This document shows positions 1-14,991 of a DNA stretch of 64,000 bases, piece by piece. The position numbers and the translations under genes were made by a program. Source of the stretch: Streptacidiphilus sp. 4-A2. Lineage in GTDB: Bacteria > Actinomycetota > Actinomycetes > Streptomycetales > Streptomycetaceae. A model generated the notes under the pieces. The model was not told the origin of the DNA. It searched no databases and saw nothing but the letters and a program-made list of their open reading frames with translations. Each line of letters starts with the position of its first letter. The stretch's first letter is position 1. The DNA is taken from contig JAAFYY010000001.1 in NCBI GenBank assembly GCA_014284505.1, positions 5,319,845 through 5,383,844 on the forward strand, read 5' to 3'.

Positions 1-2529
1 CCGGGCACCGCGGAGAACGGGTGCGGGACGAACCGGTCGGCGGTCAGGTCCGGGCGGCCCAGATAGCCGCGGGCCAGGCAGTCACCGCCGATGTACAGCT
101 GCCCGGCGGTGCCCACCGGCACCGGGTTCAGCTCGGCGTCCAGCACATAGGTCTCGACACCGCTGATCGGACGGCCGATGGGCACCCGGTCGCCGGTGAA
201 CGGGTCCTCCAGCAGCGTCGCCGTGGCGTTGACGGTGGTCTCGGTCAGCCCGTAGACGTTGAACACCGGCCCCGGTGTCCCGTTGCCAGAGCCGCAGCGC
301 CTGCGCGTCCACCGGCTCGGCGCCGATGGAGGCCAGCCGCAGGCTGGGGGCCGGGTGCAGGCCCCGGGCGTGTGCGTCGGTGATCCACTGCCGCCAGTAG
401 CTGGAGGTGAGGATGGCGAAGGTGATCCGCTCCCGGGTCATCAGCCCGGTCAGCTCCTCCGGCCCCGGCTGCGGCTCGGGGCGAGCACCACACAGCCCCC
501 GCCGACCAGGTCGGGTACATCTCCTCCACCGCGATGTCGAAGCCGAGGCTGGCGAACTGGAGCACCCGGTCGGCGGCGGTCAGCCCGTAGATCCGGCGCA
601 TGGTCGCCACCACGATGGACAGCGAGGCATGGGTGACCGCCACTCCCTTGGGCTCGCCGGTCGAGCCCGAGGTGAACAGCACATAGGCCAGGTTCCCCGG
701 CTCCGGACGGCGCACCGGGGTCACCGCCGCGCGCGGCCCGGAGGTCAGCTCGTCGACGGTCAGCACGGTGGCGTCCGCCTCGGCCAGCCGGTGCACCGTG
801 ACCGCGTCGGCGACCGCGTACCGGGCCCCGGCCGCGCCCAGCAGCCGGGCCAGATAGGCCGGGTGTGGGTGGAGCTCAGCGGCAGATAGGCCGCGCCCGC
901 CTTGAGAATGCCCAGCAGCGTCGCGGCCGTTCCCGCCCCGCGCTCCTGGAGCACCCCGACGATGTCCTCGGGCCCGGCCCCGGCCGCGCGCAGATGCTCG
1001 GCGATCCGCTCGGACAGCTCGTGCAGCTCGGCGTAACTGGTCTCCCCCGCCCCAGCTCACTGCCGGGGCCGCGGGCGTGGCGGCGGCCTGGCGGCGAACA
1101 TCTCGTGCACCCGCTCCTCGGCGCCGCTGACCGGCTCCGGCCGACTCCACTCGTCCAGGATCAGCGCCCGCTCCCGTTCGCCCAGCAGCGGCAGCGCGTG
1201 CAGCGGCAGCTCCGGGCCACACCGGCGGTCAGGAAGCGGACGAACTGCTCCACGAAGCGGTCGACGGTGCCCGGGTCGAACAGCTCGGTGCTGTAGCTGA
1301 GCACCCCGACATAGCCGTCGGCCGTCCGAGGCGGCGTTGATGGACAGGTCCAGATCGAACTTGGCGGTGGTCGGCTCGGGCAGCCGCAGCTCGGCCGACA
1401 GGTCGGCGAAGCGGGGCCGGGCCATCGGCGCCAGATCGGCGCTGAAGGCCACCTGCACCAGCGGCGTGTGGCTGGGCAGCCGGTCCGGGCGCACCCGTTC
1501 GACCAACTGGTCGAAGGAGACCCCCTGGTGGGACAGCACATCCAGGGCCGACCGGCGCACCCCTTCGAGTACCGAGCCGAAGGTCTGGCCGGCCGAGGTC
1601 CTGACCCGAACCGGCAGGGTGTCCACGAACAGCCCGATCAACGGCTCGAACTCCGGCTCCGGGCGGTCGGTCACCGGCATGCCGACCAGCAGGTCGGCCG
1701 CGCCGGTCAGCCGCCCGAGCAGCGCCGAGTACGCCCCCAGCAGCACCATGAACGGGCTCATCCGCATCCGCCCGCCGAGCGCCGCCACGTCCGCCATCAG
1801 CGCGGCCGGGAGCTGGAACACCCGGGTTGCGCCCGCGATGCCGCGCACAGTCGGGCGCGGCCGGTCGCCGGGCACGGTGAGCAGGTCGGGCGCGCCGGAG
1901 AGATAACCGGTCCACCAGTCCAGCAGTTCCCCGCCGTCGAGCAGGGCCCGCTGGTAGCCGACATAGTCGCGGTACTGCGCGGTCAGCTCCGGCAGGGCGG
2001 CCGCGGCCGCGCCCCGCACTCCTGCGCGTACAGCTCGGCGAGTTCCTCGAACAGCACGGTGATCGACTGACCGTCGCAGACGATGTGATGCAGCGCCAGG
2101 CAGAGCAGGTGGTCCTGCTCCTCCAGCCGGAAGACCGCGGTGCGCAGCAGCGGTCCGGCGGTCAGCTCGAACGGCTGCTCGCACCAGGACTGCGCGAGCT
2201 CCCCGGCCCGCTCCGCCCGCTCCCCGGCGGGCAGCCCGCCGAGGTCGGTCACCGGGAGCGGGATGTCGACGAAGTCGGCGATCCGCTGCACCGGGACGCC
2301 GTCCACCGCCTCGAAGGTGGTGCGCAGCGCCTCGTGCCTGGCCACCACCCGGCGCACCGCGGCCCGCAGCGCGTCCAGATCGGCCGGGCCGCCCAGACGG
2401 ACCGAGAAGAAGACGTTGTAGTGGGAACTGTGCGGATGAAGCTCGTTGATCAGCCACAGTCCGCGCGGCGGGGGAAACCGGAGCCGTGGTCGCCGTGTCG
2501 GGCGGGGCAGTCGGCTGCTGGACAGTCAC
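1..2529 (-). CDS. Nonribosomal peptide synthetase, C-A module (3' end outside window)
   Basis: Modular enzyme that activates an amino acid and joins it to a growing peptide. GTG at 2529 follows AGAAGGGA at good spacing. A condensation domain fills about 2490-1100: RHEALRTTF near 2340 and the active-site HHIVCDG near 2080 are visible. An adenylation domain follows, with core A3 FTSGSTGEPKG near 670 and A5 YGLTETT near 250; the reading continues off the left edge. The reading must change frame near 2495, 2010, 1315, 1220, 1065, 500 and 285, each time by what looks like a lost base. Transcribed after the A-T-C synthetase at 2894-6128, probably as one operon. The amino acid activated cannot be deduced because the specificity region is frame-broken. 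Domain identity is certain; intactness of the gene in the organism is inferred. Confidence 0.85.
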
Positions 2530-8891: not shown

Positions 8892-10544
<1,653 letters not shown>

Positions 10545-11779: not shown

Positions 11780-11860
11780 GCCCGTTTCCGGGCAGCCGGC
11801 CGGGCGCGGCTTGACCCTCGACCTGGTCGAGCCCCCAGAGTCCACGCTGTGGAGAGCGAC

Positions 11861-13048
11861 ATGCACAGCATCGGCGAACTGGCCCGCCACAGCGGCCTGA
11901 CGGTCAGCGCCCTACGGTTCTACGACGGGGCCGGGGTGCTCGTCCCGTCCTGGGTGGATCCGGCCAGCGGCTACCGCTGGTACGCGCCGGAGCAGTTGGA
12001 AGACGCCCGGCTGCTGGCCCGGCTGCGCCGGGTCCAGTTGCCGCTGGCGGACATCCGGCTGCTCCTGGCCGGCTGGGCCAGCGAGGACACCTCACTGGTC
12101 CGCGGCCTGCTGGAGGCCCACCTCCGGCGGCTGGAGGACGGGCTGGCCGGTGCCCGCCGCGAACTCTCCGCAGTCAGCGCCCTACTCGCCCTGAGGGAGA
12201 CCCCTGTGAGCAGCACAGCCACGTCCGACCGGACCACCCCCAACACCCGCGTCACCCTGCCCGCCCGCGACCTGGCGGCGGCGCTGGACCAGGTCCGCTT
12301 CGCGGCCGCCACCGACCCCGAGCTGCCGATGCTCTGCGGCGTGCTCTTCGACGCCGAGTCCGGAGCGCAGGCCGGTGCCGGCGCGCTGCGGCTGGTCGCC
12401 ACCGACCGCTACCGGATGTCGCTGGCAGGCGCGGCGGCCACCGCCCTGGAAGGTCCGGCGGTGCGGGCGATCGTCCCGACCGTGCTGGTGGACGCGATGC
12501 GGGCGCTGCTCGGCGGCCGCGCCGACGCGAACGCGGACCTGCTCTTCGACGGCGGCCGGATCACCCTGGAGGTCGACGGCAGCCAGGCCGCCGGGCAGTC
12601 CCTGGACTTCGACTTCCCCGACTACCGCCGCCTGTCCCTGCTCCCGGCCGGACGCCGGCTGCCGGTGCGGGTGCCCGCGCTCCAGGAGGCGCTGCTGGCC
12701 GGCGCCTCGGTCAGCCGTGAGCGCGAGCAGGACGGGGTCGGCTACGACCTGTCGCTGCTGTCGGTGGCCGAGGACGGCACGATCACCGTGGTCACCGAAG
12801 CCGAAGCCGAAGCCGAGACCGAAACCGGAGCCGATGCCAGGACCGGAGCCGCAGCCCGAGCCGCGCAGGCCCGCCCGGGGACGGTCTTCGGCGTCAACCG
12901 CGGGTTCCTGCTGGAGGCCCTGCGGGTCGGCGGCCGCGACGATCTGGTGCTGGAACTGGGCGACCCGATGGCGCCGCTGGCGATCCGCCCGCCCGAGCCC
13001 GAGGCGTCCGCCTTCTCGCTGCTGATGCCGGTCCGGCTGGAGGGGTAA
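11861..13048 (+). CDS. MerR-type regulator fused to beta-sliding-clamp-like domains
   Basis: Intact, 395 residues from ATG 11861 (GGAGAG lies five bases upstream; an in-frame GTG at 11849 is less well placed). Residues 1-75 are a MerR winged helix: MHSIGELARHSGL, RFYDGAGVL, GYRWY. Residues about 125-395 look like the second and third domains of DNA polymerase III beta. The matches are LVATDRYRMSLA, the FPDYRRL motif, NRGFLLEALRV, and a C-terminus MPVRL close to the MPMRL end that forms the client-binding pocket of DnaN. Domain I is absent and the MerR part takes its place. A Glu/Ala-Thr low-complexity loop lies near residues 310-335. Function may be a DNA-site-directed clamp or a ligand-binding regulator using a clamp fold. 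A family-A polymerase follows 190 bp downstream. Confidence 0.85.
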   Translation: MHSIGELARHSGLTVSALRFYDGAGVLVPSWVDPASGYRWYAPEQLEDARLLARLRRVQLPLADIRLLLAGWASEDTSLVRGLLEAHLRRLEDGLAGARRELSAVSALLALRETPVSSTATSDRTTPNTRVTLPARDLAAALDQVRFAAATDPELPMLCGVLFDAESGAQAGAGALRLVATDRYRMSLAGAAATALEGPAVRAIVPTVLVDAMRALLGGRADANADLLFDGGRITLEVDGSQAAGQSLDFDFPDYRRLSLLPAGRRLPVRVPALQEALLAGASVSREREQDGVGYDLSLLSVAEDGTITVVTEAEAEAETETGADARTGAAARAAQARPGTVFGVNRGFLLEALRVGGRDDLVLELGDPMAPLAIRPPEPEASAFSLLMPVRLEG

Positions 13049-13090
13049 GGCCCGGGCAGGCCCGTCCGGCCGCCGCCCGCACCCGCCGCC

Positions 13091-13116
13091 CCGCCCGGGA
13101 ACGCCGGCCCGGGCGG
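13091..13116 (+). terminator. Hairpin after the MerR-clamp gene
   Basis: CCGCCCGGG (13091-13099) and CCCGGGCGG (13108-13116) form nine perfect pairs around an eight-base loop, 43 bases after the stop and upstream of the polymerase gene. Confidence 0.4.
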
Positions 13117-13237
13117 GCGCGCCGCGCTGTCAGTACCCGGTGGTACGTTCCGGACCAGGACGACCGGCGGCTGCGGCTGCCCGGGCAGACAGGGCCATCG
13201 GCAGGCGCGGCCACCGGCGGACACAGGGAGGCGACAG

Positions 13238-14991
13238 GTGGCAGGCCAGAGAGCACCGCGGGTCGCGGTCGCGGCGGACCAGGACGGCCGCGGCGGACGG
13301 CTCCAGCCGCTGGACGAGACCGGCGAGCCGCTGGACGAGCCGCTGCGGGTCCGCGACCTGGCCGCGGCCATGACCGCCCAGGAGGCCGCCGCCGCGCCCC
13401 GCTGGGTGTGGGCCGCGACCGAGGAGCTCTATCCGCGGCTGCTGCCGGATCTGCCGGAGGGCCGGCTGGCCCGCTGCCATGACGTCAAGCTGGTGGAGCC
13501 GCTGCTGCTGGGCCAGGAGGAGCGCTACGGCCAGCCGCGCTCGCTGGGCGCGGCCTGGGCCCGGCTGCGCGGTGGGTACGTGCCGGAGGACCTGCCCGAG
13601 GGTCCCGGCGGCGACAGCGACCAGGACTCCCTCTTCGCGCCCGACCGCAGCCGGCTGGCGCCCGGCGTCGACCCGCTGACCGCGCTGGTCGCCGTGCACG
13701 CGGAGCAGCAGCGGCGGATCGCGGCCACCGCCGAACCGGCGCGGACCAGGCTGCTCTGCGCGGCCGAGTCGGCCGGCGGGCTGATCGCCGCCGAGATGGC
13801 CTTCGACGGGCTGCCGTGGAGCGCGCAGGCCCATGACCGGCTGCTGACCGAGCTGCTTGGCCCCCGGCCGCACGGCGGCGCGCAGCCCGCCAAGCTCGCG
13901 GCGCTGGCCGTGGAGCTCCAGCAGGCCCTCGGCGGGCGTCCGCTCAATCCGGACTCGCCGTCCCAGGTGCTGCGGGCCTTCGCCGAGCAGGGGGTGAGCC
14001 TGACCTCCACCCGCAACTGGGTGCTGCGCGAGGTGGACCATCCGGCGGCCCCGCTGCTGCTGCGTTACAAGGAGCTGTCGCGGATCCACGCCGCCCACGG
14101 CTGGGCCTGGCGGGAGGCCTGGGTGCGGGGCGGGCGCTTCCGTCCGGAGTACGTGGTCGGCGGTGTGGTCTCCGGCCGCTGGGCGAGCCGGGGCGGCGGG
14201 GCGCTGCAGATCCCGCGGATCATGCGCGGCGCGGCCCTGGCCGATCCGGGCTGGCTGCTGGTGGTCGCGGACGCCGGTCAGCTGGAGCCGCGGGTACTGG
14301 CGGCGATGTCGGGCGACCCGGGGCTGATCCGGGCCGGTGCCCAGGGCGACCTGTACGCCGGACTGGCGGCGGTGGCCTTCGGCGGCGACCGGGCCCGGGC
14401 CAAGCTGGGGCTGCTCGGCGCGATGTACGGGCAGACCACCGGCGAGACCGGGCAGTTGGTCGCGGTGCTGCGGCGGCGGTTCCCGCAGGCCATGGGGCTG
14501 GTGGAGGCGGCGGCGCGGACCGGCGAGACCGGCGGGGTGGTGCGCTCGCAGCTGGGGCGGGTGTGCCCGCCGCCGTCGGTGGGCTGGCTGGATCCGGCCG
14601 AGGGCGGCTCGGACGCCGCCACCGAGGACGCGGCCCGGGACAGCCGTTCCCGCGGGCGCTTCACCCGTAACTTCGTCATCCAGGCCAGCGCGGCGGACTG
14701 GGCGCTGGCGCTGATCGCGGCGTTGCGGCGGCGGCTGGCGCAGATCCCGACGGCGGTCCCGGGCGACCGGCCGCGGCTGGTGTTCTTCCAGCACGACGAG
14801 GTGGTGGTGCACACCCCGGGCCAGCTGGCCGACGAGGTGCGGGCGGCGGTGACCGCCGCCGGGAGGAGGCCCGGCGGCTGGTCTTCGGGGACACGCCGGT
14901 GCACTTCCCGCTGGACACGCATGTCGCCACGAGCTACGGGGAGGCCAAGGGCGGCGCGGAGGAGGATTTCGAGGGTTCCGAGGAGGAGTGA
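13238..14991 (+). CDS. Family-A DNA polymerase (polA-like, bifunctional 3'-5' exonuclease/polymerase type)
   Basis: GTG at 13238 follows GGGAGG. Motif A is VVADAGQLEPR (DYSQIELR in PolA). Motif B is RARAKLGLLGAMYGQ, with the conserved Arg, Lys and Tyr-Gly. Motif C is FFQHDEVVVH with the catalytic His-Asp-Glu. At about 585 residues it is shorter than PolA and has no 5' nuclease domain; the N-terminal 200 residues replace the exonuclease region and show no complete DEDD set that I can find. It matches the short actinobacterial polymerase family. Residues 129-133 read QDSLF, close to the clamp-binding pentapeptide QLSLF. The frame breaks near 14860; the other frame supplies the C-terminus to TGA 14991. 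Neighbours suggest a repair or specialised-synthesis role. Confidence 0.88.

Follow-up and report, generated by a model that had tools for sequence, protein, structure and literature searches.

A MerR regulator joined to half a sliding clamp in Streptomycetaceae: a candidate autoregulated sensor of clamp-pocket ligands

The window analysed here, a 64,000-nucleotide stretch of Streptacidiphilus sp. 4-A2 (contig JAAFYY010000001.1, positions 5,319,845 to 5,383,844), encodes a protein in which a MerR-type DNA-binding domain is joined to domains 2 and 3 of the DnaN sliding clamp. We lean towards the reading that this fusion is a stand-alone, TipA-like MerR autoregulator, in which the half clamp serves as the ligand-binding domain and both senses and sequesters ligands of the clamp pocket. 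The sequence basis in hand for this reading consists of the MerR domain, a half clamp with a conserved pocket, a dedicated promoter, a near-exclusive targeting of the gene to itself, and a conserved Shine-Dalgarno (SD) sequence and start codon at the junction between the two parts (Table 1).

The domain content of the protein, described in the initial annotation as an intact MerR winged helix followed by two clamp-like domains, is borne out by family searches and structure prediction alike. The Pfam family MerR_1 matches residues 3-70 with an expectation value (E) of 1.1e-11, and the scores against the MerR family models PF13411 and PF00376 are 45.1 and 39.2 bits, for cut-offs of 21.6 and 28.2, respectively. 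The Pfam family DNA_pol3_beta_2 matches residues 133-254 (E 5.9e-12), while residues 127-393 correspond to positions 123-367 of the 367 positions of the NCBIfam DnaN model TIGR00663 (E 2.3e-19), with a score of 69.6 bits that lies below the equivalog cut-off of 137.65. Because this match covers model positions 123-367 only, DnaN domain 1 is absent from the fusion, which has two clamp domains (2 and 3) per subunit and not the three of DnaN; a separate, full DnaN is encoded in the same genome. The stretches FPDYRRL and NRGFLLEAL and the terminal MPVRL, which had been singled out as clamp-like from the sequence, indeed align with FPDYRRV, NVSYVLDVL and MPMRL of the Escherichia coli DnaN.

The AlphaFold2 model of the fusion, built with 42 sequences, has a mean predicted local distance difference test score (pLDDT) of 81.3, the five models ranging from 72.1 to 81.3. 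It consists of the helix-turn-helix (HTH), a long helix (residues 77-113), a stretch with pLDDT below 50 (residues 113-123) and two clamp-like domains, the relative placing of the two halves being unreliable because the predicted template modelling score is 0.60. The presumed role of the long helix in dimerisation follows from what is known of the MerR family. When this model was searched with Foldseek, the best 50 matches were all sliding clamps or, by title, complexes holding one (best E 4.2e-15, template modelling scores by query length of about 0.5), and the match at rank 4 was 6ptr, a clamp with griselimycin. The PDB entries 5xbt, 5xql and 3d71 matched over the MerR part.

The residues lining the client-peptide pocket and the ring interface were taken, in E. 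coli numbering, from the lists given in PMC11139829, and were compared in 85 copies of the fusion belonging to subfamily A and in 13 copies of a diverged subfamily B. In subfamily A, L155, T172, M362 and P363 are found in all 85 copies, R176 and P242 in 84, R246 in 83, R365 in 81 and N320 in 74. Three departures from the E. coli residues are shared with the DnaN of the same organism, namely G174 to Arg (85/85), H175 to Tyr (84/85) and R152 to Leu (83/85); in addition, Y323 is Phe in 76 of the 85 copies and V344 is variable. At the ring interface, L273 is replaced by Arg in 75 copies and E304 by Val in 78, and E298 falls in a gap in all of them. From this comparison, the client-peptide pocket is conserved in subfamily A, and the half clamp looks selected for binding and not for ring formation, since the pocket residues are kept while the ring-interface positions are changed. 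A ring also seems unlikely because domain 1 is missing and several interface residues of domain 3 are changed.

The upstream region displays the layout of a MerR-regulated promoter. The promoter counts, and those for the internal start below, refer to 81 loci, that is, the window and 80 named loci (the best 80 of 452 confirmed stretches) from Streptomyces, two Actinacidiphila (L082, L102) and two Streptacidiphilus (L123, L142). In all 81, TTGACC is found upstream of the fusion, followed 19 nucleotides (nt) further by a -10-like hexamer: CAGAGT in 48, CAGGGT in 27, CACAGT and CAGTGT in two each, and GAGGGT and CAGGCT in one each. In 76 loci, 19 nt separate the end of this hexamer from the start codon. 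The spacer contains the palindrome CTCGACCnGGTCGAG, which is imperfect in many copies. The mean information per column amounts to 1.68 bits over the promoter, compared to 0.28 over the 50 nt upstream, with an abrupt rise at the -35 element. A 19-nt spacer enclosing the operator is a hallmark of MerR regulators, and the MerR operator that the initial annotation had suggested searching for is present in every one of the 81 loci. No RNA element was detected near the promoter using the Rfam gathering scores on 3,031 bases of one locus (L170).

A putative second translation start is conserved where the MerR part meets the clamp part. Codon 116 reads ATG in 77 copies, GTG in three and TTG in one, so that the encoded amino acids differ and the codon is always a start codon. 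It is preceded by GGAG at a distance of 6 nt (75 copies) or 9 nt (6 copies), as part of the hexamer AGGGAG (69), CGGGAG (8) or AAGGAG (4). The four copies with AAG, in which arginine is changed to lysine at this column, still preserve the SD sequence. Where arginine is encoded, the rare codon AGG is used in 69 of 77 copies, as opposed to no more than 9 of 71 at any of the other 33 arginine columns conserved in at least 65 of the 81 copies. Across the 81 genes, none of the remaining in-frame start codons has A[AG]GGAG 5-14 nt before it. The start codon behind GGAG was again observed in 29 of 29 further loci read (L011-L039), some of which are the same contigs as the named loci, and in three of the four A-branch copies from outside the family (L216, L217, L219). 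The site lies in the low-confidence linker of the AlphaFold2 model. The linker peptide varies, yet both the choice of codon and the identity of the start are conserved; for subfamily A, this is most simply read as translation of a second product, a free clamp half, from the predicted start.

Separately, two genes, one in the Streptacidiphilus genome itself (L003, 1489-2571) and one in G335 (L215), code for a MerR domain linked to a phosphatase domain that by eye is PP2C-like; TTGACC lies upstream of both. L215 has, at its own junction, an in-frame ATG behind GAGGAG (codon 114), and a design with two starts may thus extend to other MerR fusions.

The operator is almost confined to the fusion gene. 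In the genome of the window, a scan allowing up to three mismatches recovers one site, at the fusion's own promoter. The scan was extended to 200 Streptomycetaceae genomes with up to one mismatch, and to 394 genomes with a slightly looser pattern. In the former, 86 sites were found in 83 genomes, all of which also carry the fusion, compared to none in the 104 genomes without a fusion match; the reversed pattern, used as a control, gave no sites in the 200 genomes. All but one of these sites (85/86) lie 5-104 nt upstream of a match to the fusion or to the clamp half, at exactly 19 nt in 67 cases. The sole orphan, in G012, precedes an open reading frame (ORF) for an MFS_1 transporter (E 2.2e-31), whose first standard start codon is 224 nt downstream of the site. 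With the looser pattern, the operator is present in 133 of the 394 genomes, as a single site in 130 and as two sites in G012, G155 and G170. G155 has two copies of the fusion, and the second site of G170 drives a separate gene for a 252-residue clamp half that lacks the MerR domain and has its own SD sequence. The looser pattern added 49 operator-bearing genomes to the count; 48 of them carry the fusion, and the last one a deleted remnant of it. Judging by these scans, the fusion appears to control little but itself.

Table 1. Features of the fusion gene and its surroundings; positions are those of the window, except in the last row, where they are those of locus L220.
Feature	Position	Strand	Basis
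MerR / DnaN-domain-2+3 fusion, full-length long form, 395 residues (P0001)	11861..13048	+	family searches, alignment, model
MerR winged-helix DNA-binding domain, residues 1-70	11861..12070	+	Pfam MerR_1 / MerR
Long helix, residues 77-113, presumed MerR dimerisation helix	12089..12199	+	AlphaFold2 model secondary structure
Clamp domain 2	12245..12622	+	Pfam DNA_pol3_beta_2, residues 133-254; model strands from 129
Clamp domain 3	12623..13045	+	TIGR00663 match through residue 393; alignment with DnaN
Pocket motif ATDRYRM, residues 180-186	12398..12418	+	alignment to pocket residues
Pocket motif FPDYRRL, residues 252-258	12614..12634	+	alignment to pocket residues
Pocket motif LMPVRL, residues 388-393	13022..13039	+	alignment to pocket residues
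MerR-type promoter/operator: -35 TTGACC (11811-11816), palindrome CTCGACC-T-GGTCGAG (11817-11831), -10 CAGAGT (11836-11841), 19-nt spacer	11811..11841	+	conservation in 81 loci
Internal Shine-Dalgarno AGGGAG, codons Arg112-Glu113	12194..12199	+	hexamer and Arg-codon conservation in 81 copies
Predicted short form (free clamp half), start GTG at codon 116	12206..13048	+	start-codon conservation; stand-alone equivalent in G170
NF011538 'bifunctional 3'-5' exonuclease/DNA polymerase', C-terminus frameshifted near 14860	13238..14991	+	NCBIfam, Pfam; judged outside the fusion's system
QDSLF, clamp-binding-like motif, polymerase residues 129-133	13622..13636	+	QxxLF in 42/42
Stand-alone clamp-half gene, G170 (L220)	545-1303	-	Pfam DNA_pol3_beta_2 E 7.7e-15; fusion's operator upstream

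This arrangement recalls several known systems without coinciding with any of them. The BmrR/BrlR-type MerR drug sensors also combine a MerR domain with a C-terminal ligand-binding domain, but the fold of their effector domain differs from that of the fusion, and they regulate other genes. The resemblance to DnaN lies in the fold of domains 2 and 3 and in the pocket that binds clients and griselimycin, whereas the fusion lacks domain 1, has a changed ring interface and carries a MerR domain. The closest likeness in layout is to TipA (TipAL/TipAS) of Streptomyces lividans, an autoregulated member of the MerR family that gives two products through alternative starts, the short one of which sequesters thiopeptides (PMC7762955). 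Both proteins have an N-terminal MerR HTH and helix and a C-terminal ligand-binding domain, the latter being putative in the fusion; autoregulation, two products and sequestration by the short form are likewise predicted for the fusion from its sequence. In contrast to the helical TipAS domain, the effector part of the fusion is made of DnaN domains 2 and 3, and the TipAS domain PF07739 of Pfam had no match in the fusion at E up to 1. By analogy, the fusion, being neither a member of the TipA family (no TipAS) nor a DnaN (no domain 1), appears to work like TipA with a piece of DnaN.

A drug may be the ligand. According to PMC10817943, griselimycin and mycoplanecin bind the DnaN pocket, and a second DnaN encoded in their clusters (griR, mypR) is the proposed means of self-resistance. 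GriR and MypR thus resemble the fusion as extra clamp proteins proposed to protect against clamp-directed peptides, with the difference that they are DnaN genes of the griselimycin and mycoplanecin pathways, while the fusion has a regulator domain attached to half a clamp and occurs in roughly one in two of the family genomes searched. The proposal that the fusion senses and sequesters such drugs is based on the conjunction of the TipA-like layout, a pocket equivalent to the griselimycin/mycoplanecin site, and the second DnaN as a proposed form of self-resistance. Under this scheme, the long form would bind the palindrome located in the spacer of its own promoter and, once a clamp-directed peptide or other ligand enters the pocket, would switch this 19-nt-spacer promoter on. 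Translation of the message from both starts would then yield the long regulator as well as free clamp halves, and these halves would sequester the ligand, so that the true DnaN is protected. Peptide natural products directed at the clamp, such as griselimycin and mycoplanecin, would be the most likely ligands. The initial annotation had mentioned a clamp fold acting as a sensor as one of two possibilities, and it is this one that our data favour.

The fusion was detected in 96 of the 200 Streptomycetaceae genomes (E up to 1e-25), as a stand-alone gene located in many different places. Among the 74 of 81 loci in which neighbours could be counted (genes called by a simple composition script; seven loci failed the motif filter), a neighbour family recurs at a fixed offset in 11 loci at most, and the commonest neighbour family is found in 22 at scattered offsets. 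Six partial or missing copies with the operator present were read (L253-L258), and all are broken, including an internal-deletion remnant in G497, so that the gene seems dispensable, although assembly errors may account for some of these copies. The 13 copies of subfamily B (L202-L214) are found in Streptomycetaceae and in families f4, f17 and f19. All of them have TTGAC[CT] and a -10-like hexamer 19 nt apart, in the style TTGACC-TTC...TTGAAG...-GATGAT-like, and all retain the core of subsite I (L155, T172, R176, P242, M362 and P363). Several show weaker SD-like matches at positions other than the junction.

Some of these observations weigh against the TipA-like sensor. At up to one mismatch, 13 of the 96 fusion genomes have no operator match, and the looser pattern recovered only one of them (G065). 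The transporter target of G012 and the separate clamp-half gene of G170 are each known from one genome; the frame of the transporter is open further upstream, where its true start may lie, and the stand-alone half of G170 has altered pocket residues (T172 to Ser, R365 to Leu). Position I272 of the ring interface is still hydrophobic (Val in 78 of 85), with an uncertain alignment of domain 3 there. The internal start is missing from the A-branch copy L218, and a clear SD-preceded junction ATG is present in only one of the 13 subfamily B copies (L207). In the same subfamily, R246 is kept in 2/13 and R365 in 6/13, and N320 and Y323 are lost. The 81 sequences behind the promoter and junction counts share ancestry, and these counts are not independent events. 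Finally, the conservation of the pocket fits cellular clamp clients equally well.

This last point leads to the main rival, a buffer for cellular or phage clamp clients, in which free proteins with an affinity for the clamp, such as repair polymerases, MutL-like proteins or clamp binders encoded by phages, would be sensed by the fusion and titrated by the free halves, as a brake on replication or repair and not as drug immunity. The same pocket, promoter and internal-start evidence speaks for such a buffer, as does the QxxLF peptide of the neighbouring polymerase and its 41 orthologues, which could bind the half clamp. We nevertheless regard it as unlikely, since the patchy presence of the gene and its broken or deleted copies suit a niche-dependent function better than a core control of replication, and since the only additional target of the operator that is not a fusion or clamp-half gene encodes a transporter. 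The divergence of subfamily B raises another alternative, in which autoregulated sequestration holds and the clamp half has evolved as a scaffold for an unrelated small molecule, clamp antibiotics not being the ligand. Subfamily B does change subsite II while keeping the regulator design, and the effector domains of MerR proteins are generally varied. Against this, subfamily A keeps most pocket residues as in the organism's own DnaN, which is not expected for a repurposed site, and we consider such a scaffold improbable.

Taken one step further, the TipA-like reading would make the fusion a one-gene system of immunity to clamp-directed antibiotics, in which a copy of the drug's own target acts both as the sensor and, in free form, as a decoy or sponge. 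We advance this only tentatively for the roughly half of Streptomycetaceae that carry the gene. If true, clamp-directed antibiotics would be far commoner in soil than the few known ones suggest, and a sensor and a decoy derived from a drug target would be combined in one gene, which could serve as a natural reporter for clamp-binding antibiotics; the sliding clamp is a validated target against tuberculosis (PMC10817943). It would also give a function to a gene that has so far been named, where it is named, only as 'MerR family transcriptional regulator', as in three of the six plasmid records with a match (five Streptomyces and one Embleya), the other three having no feature name. A literature search, judged by title or abstract, retrieved no description of a MerR/clamp fusion, which is not proof of absence.

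Downstream of the fusion, the family-A polymerase reported in the initial annotation at about 190 bp is located 189 nt away. It scores 678.3 bits against NCBIfam NF011538 (cut-off 389), matches Pfam DNA_pol_A and contains HDE. Its QDSLF, regarded from the start as resembling a clamp-binding peptide, is well conserved: Q[DE][STA]LF is present in 30 of 30 polymerases (the window and 29 others, L041-L069), and QxxLF in 12 of 12 more (L259-L270), within a variable loop. In the total of 42, Q, L and F are invariant and position 2 is D, E, S or P, as opposed to the aliphatic residue of the consensus Q-aliphatic-x-[L/M]-[F/L] given in PMC11139829. On this evidence, the NF011538 polymerase is probably a sliding-clamp client. 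Its peptide probably serves the ordinary DnaN, because the motif occurs with or without the fusion, being found also where the fusion is absent (for example, in G066 and G037).

The suggestion that the fusion and the polymerase form a functional pair was not upheld. The polymerase is present in 194 of the 200 Streptomycetaceae genomes (E up to 1e-40), compared to 96 for the fusion. For 85 of the 98 copies of the fusion or clamp half, the position of the polymerase was among the matches listed, and the two lie within 20 kb in six of these 85. The six close pairs, with 174-4018 nt between matches, correspond to all six fusion genomes of one genus (g1, Streptacidiphilus), and eight other genomes of this genus have the polymerase and no fusion match. 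In one of these eight, G066, where the polymerase is 89% identical and the neighbourhood can be aligned, a transporter-like ORF (named by eye) on the opposite strand takes the place of the fusion. Co-occurrence, adjacency and this locus without the fusion all speak against the partnership.

These results also bear on the other possibility of the initial annotation, a half clamp guided by DNA sequence that would bring the adjacent polymerase, or the single-stranded DNA-binding protein (SSB), to particular sites. The conserved pocket, the conserved QxxLF of the polymerase and the adjacency of the two genes in Streptacidiphilus are compatible with such recruitment. Nevertheless, the single operator copy of the genome, at the fusion's own promoter, makes targeting to many sites unlikely, the same holds for the 130 of 133 operator-bearing genomes with one copy, and neither co-occurrence nor conserved adjacency was observed, the polymerase locus of G066 lacking the fusion altogether. 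We therefore regard recruitment as very improbable.

Two other neighbours, both named by eye, are an ettA-like ABC-F ORF that starts at 8892 and an SSB-like N-terminus at about 8315. Each of them changes frame, the former at about 9380 and the latter at about 8570, and the polymerase does so at about 14860, as it is not open to 14991 in a single frame and its last 40 or so codons are in another one. Since three ORFs change frame and the genome has a completeness rating of 76.5%, insertion/deletion or assembly errors are likely.

Beyond the family, a profile search at the class level gave matches in 31 of 296 genomes, not all of which are clamp fusions: the match in G335 is the MerR/PP2C-like protein, and those in G208, G232 and G249 (L225-L227) extend over the clamp part only. 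A phage origin of the fusion was considered and discarded, as no phage record matched at E up to 1e-10. Independently, clamp-like relatives with 22-37% identity to the query were observed in 25 viral contigs (L228-L252).

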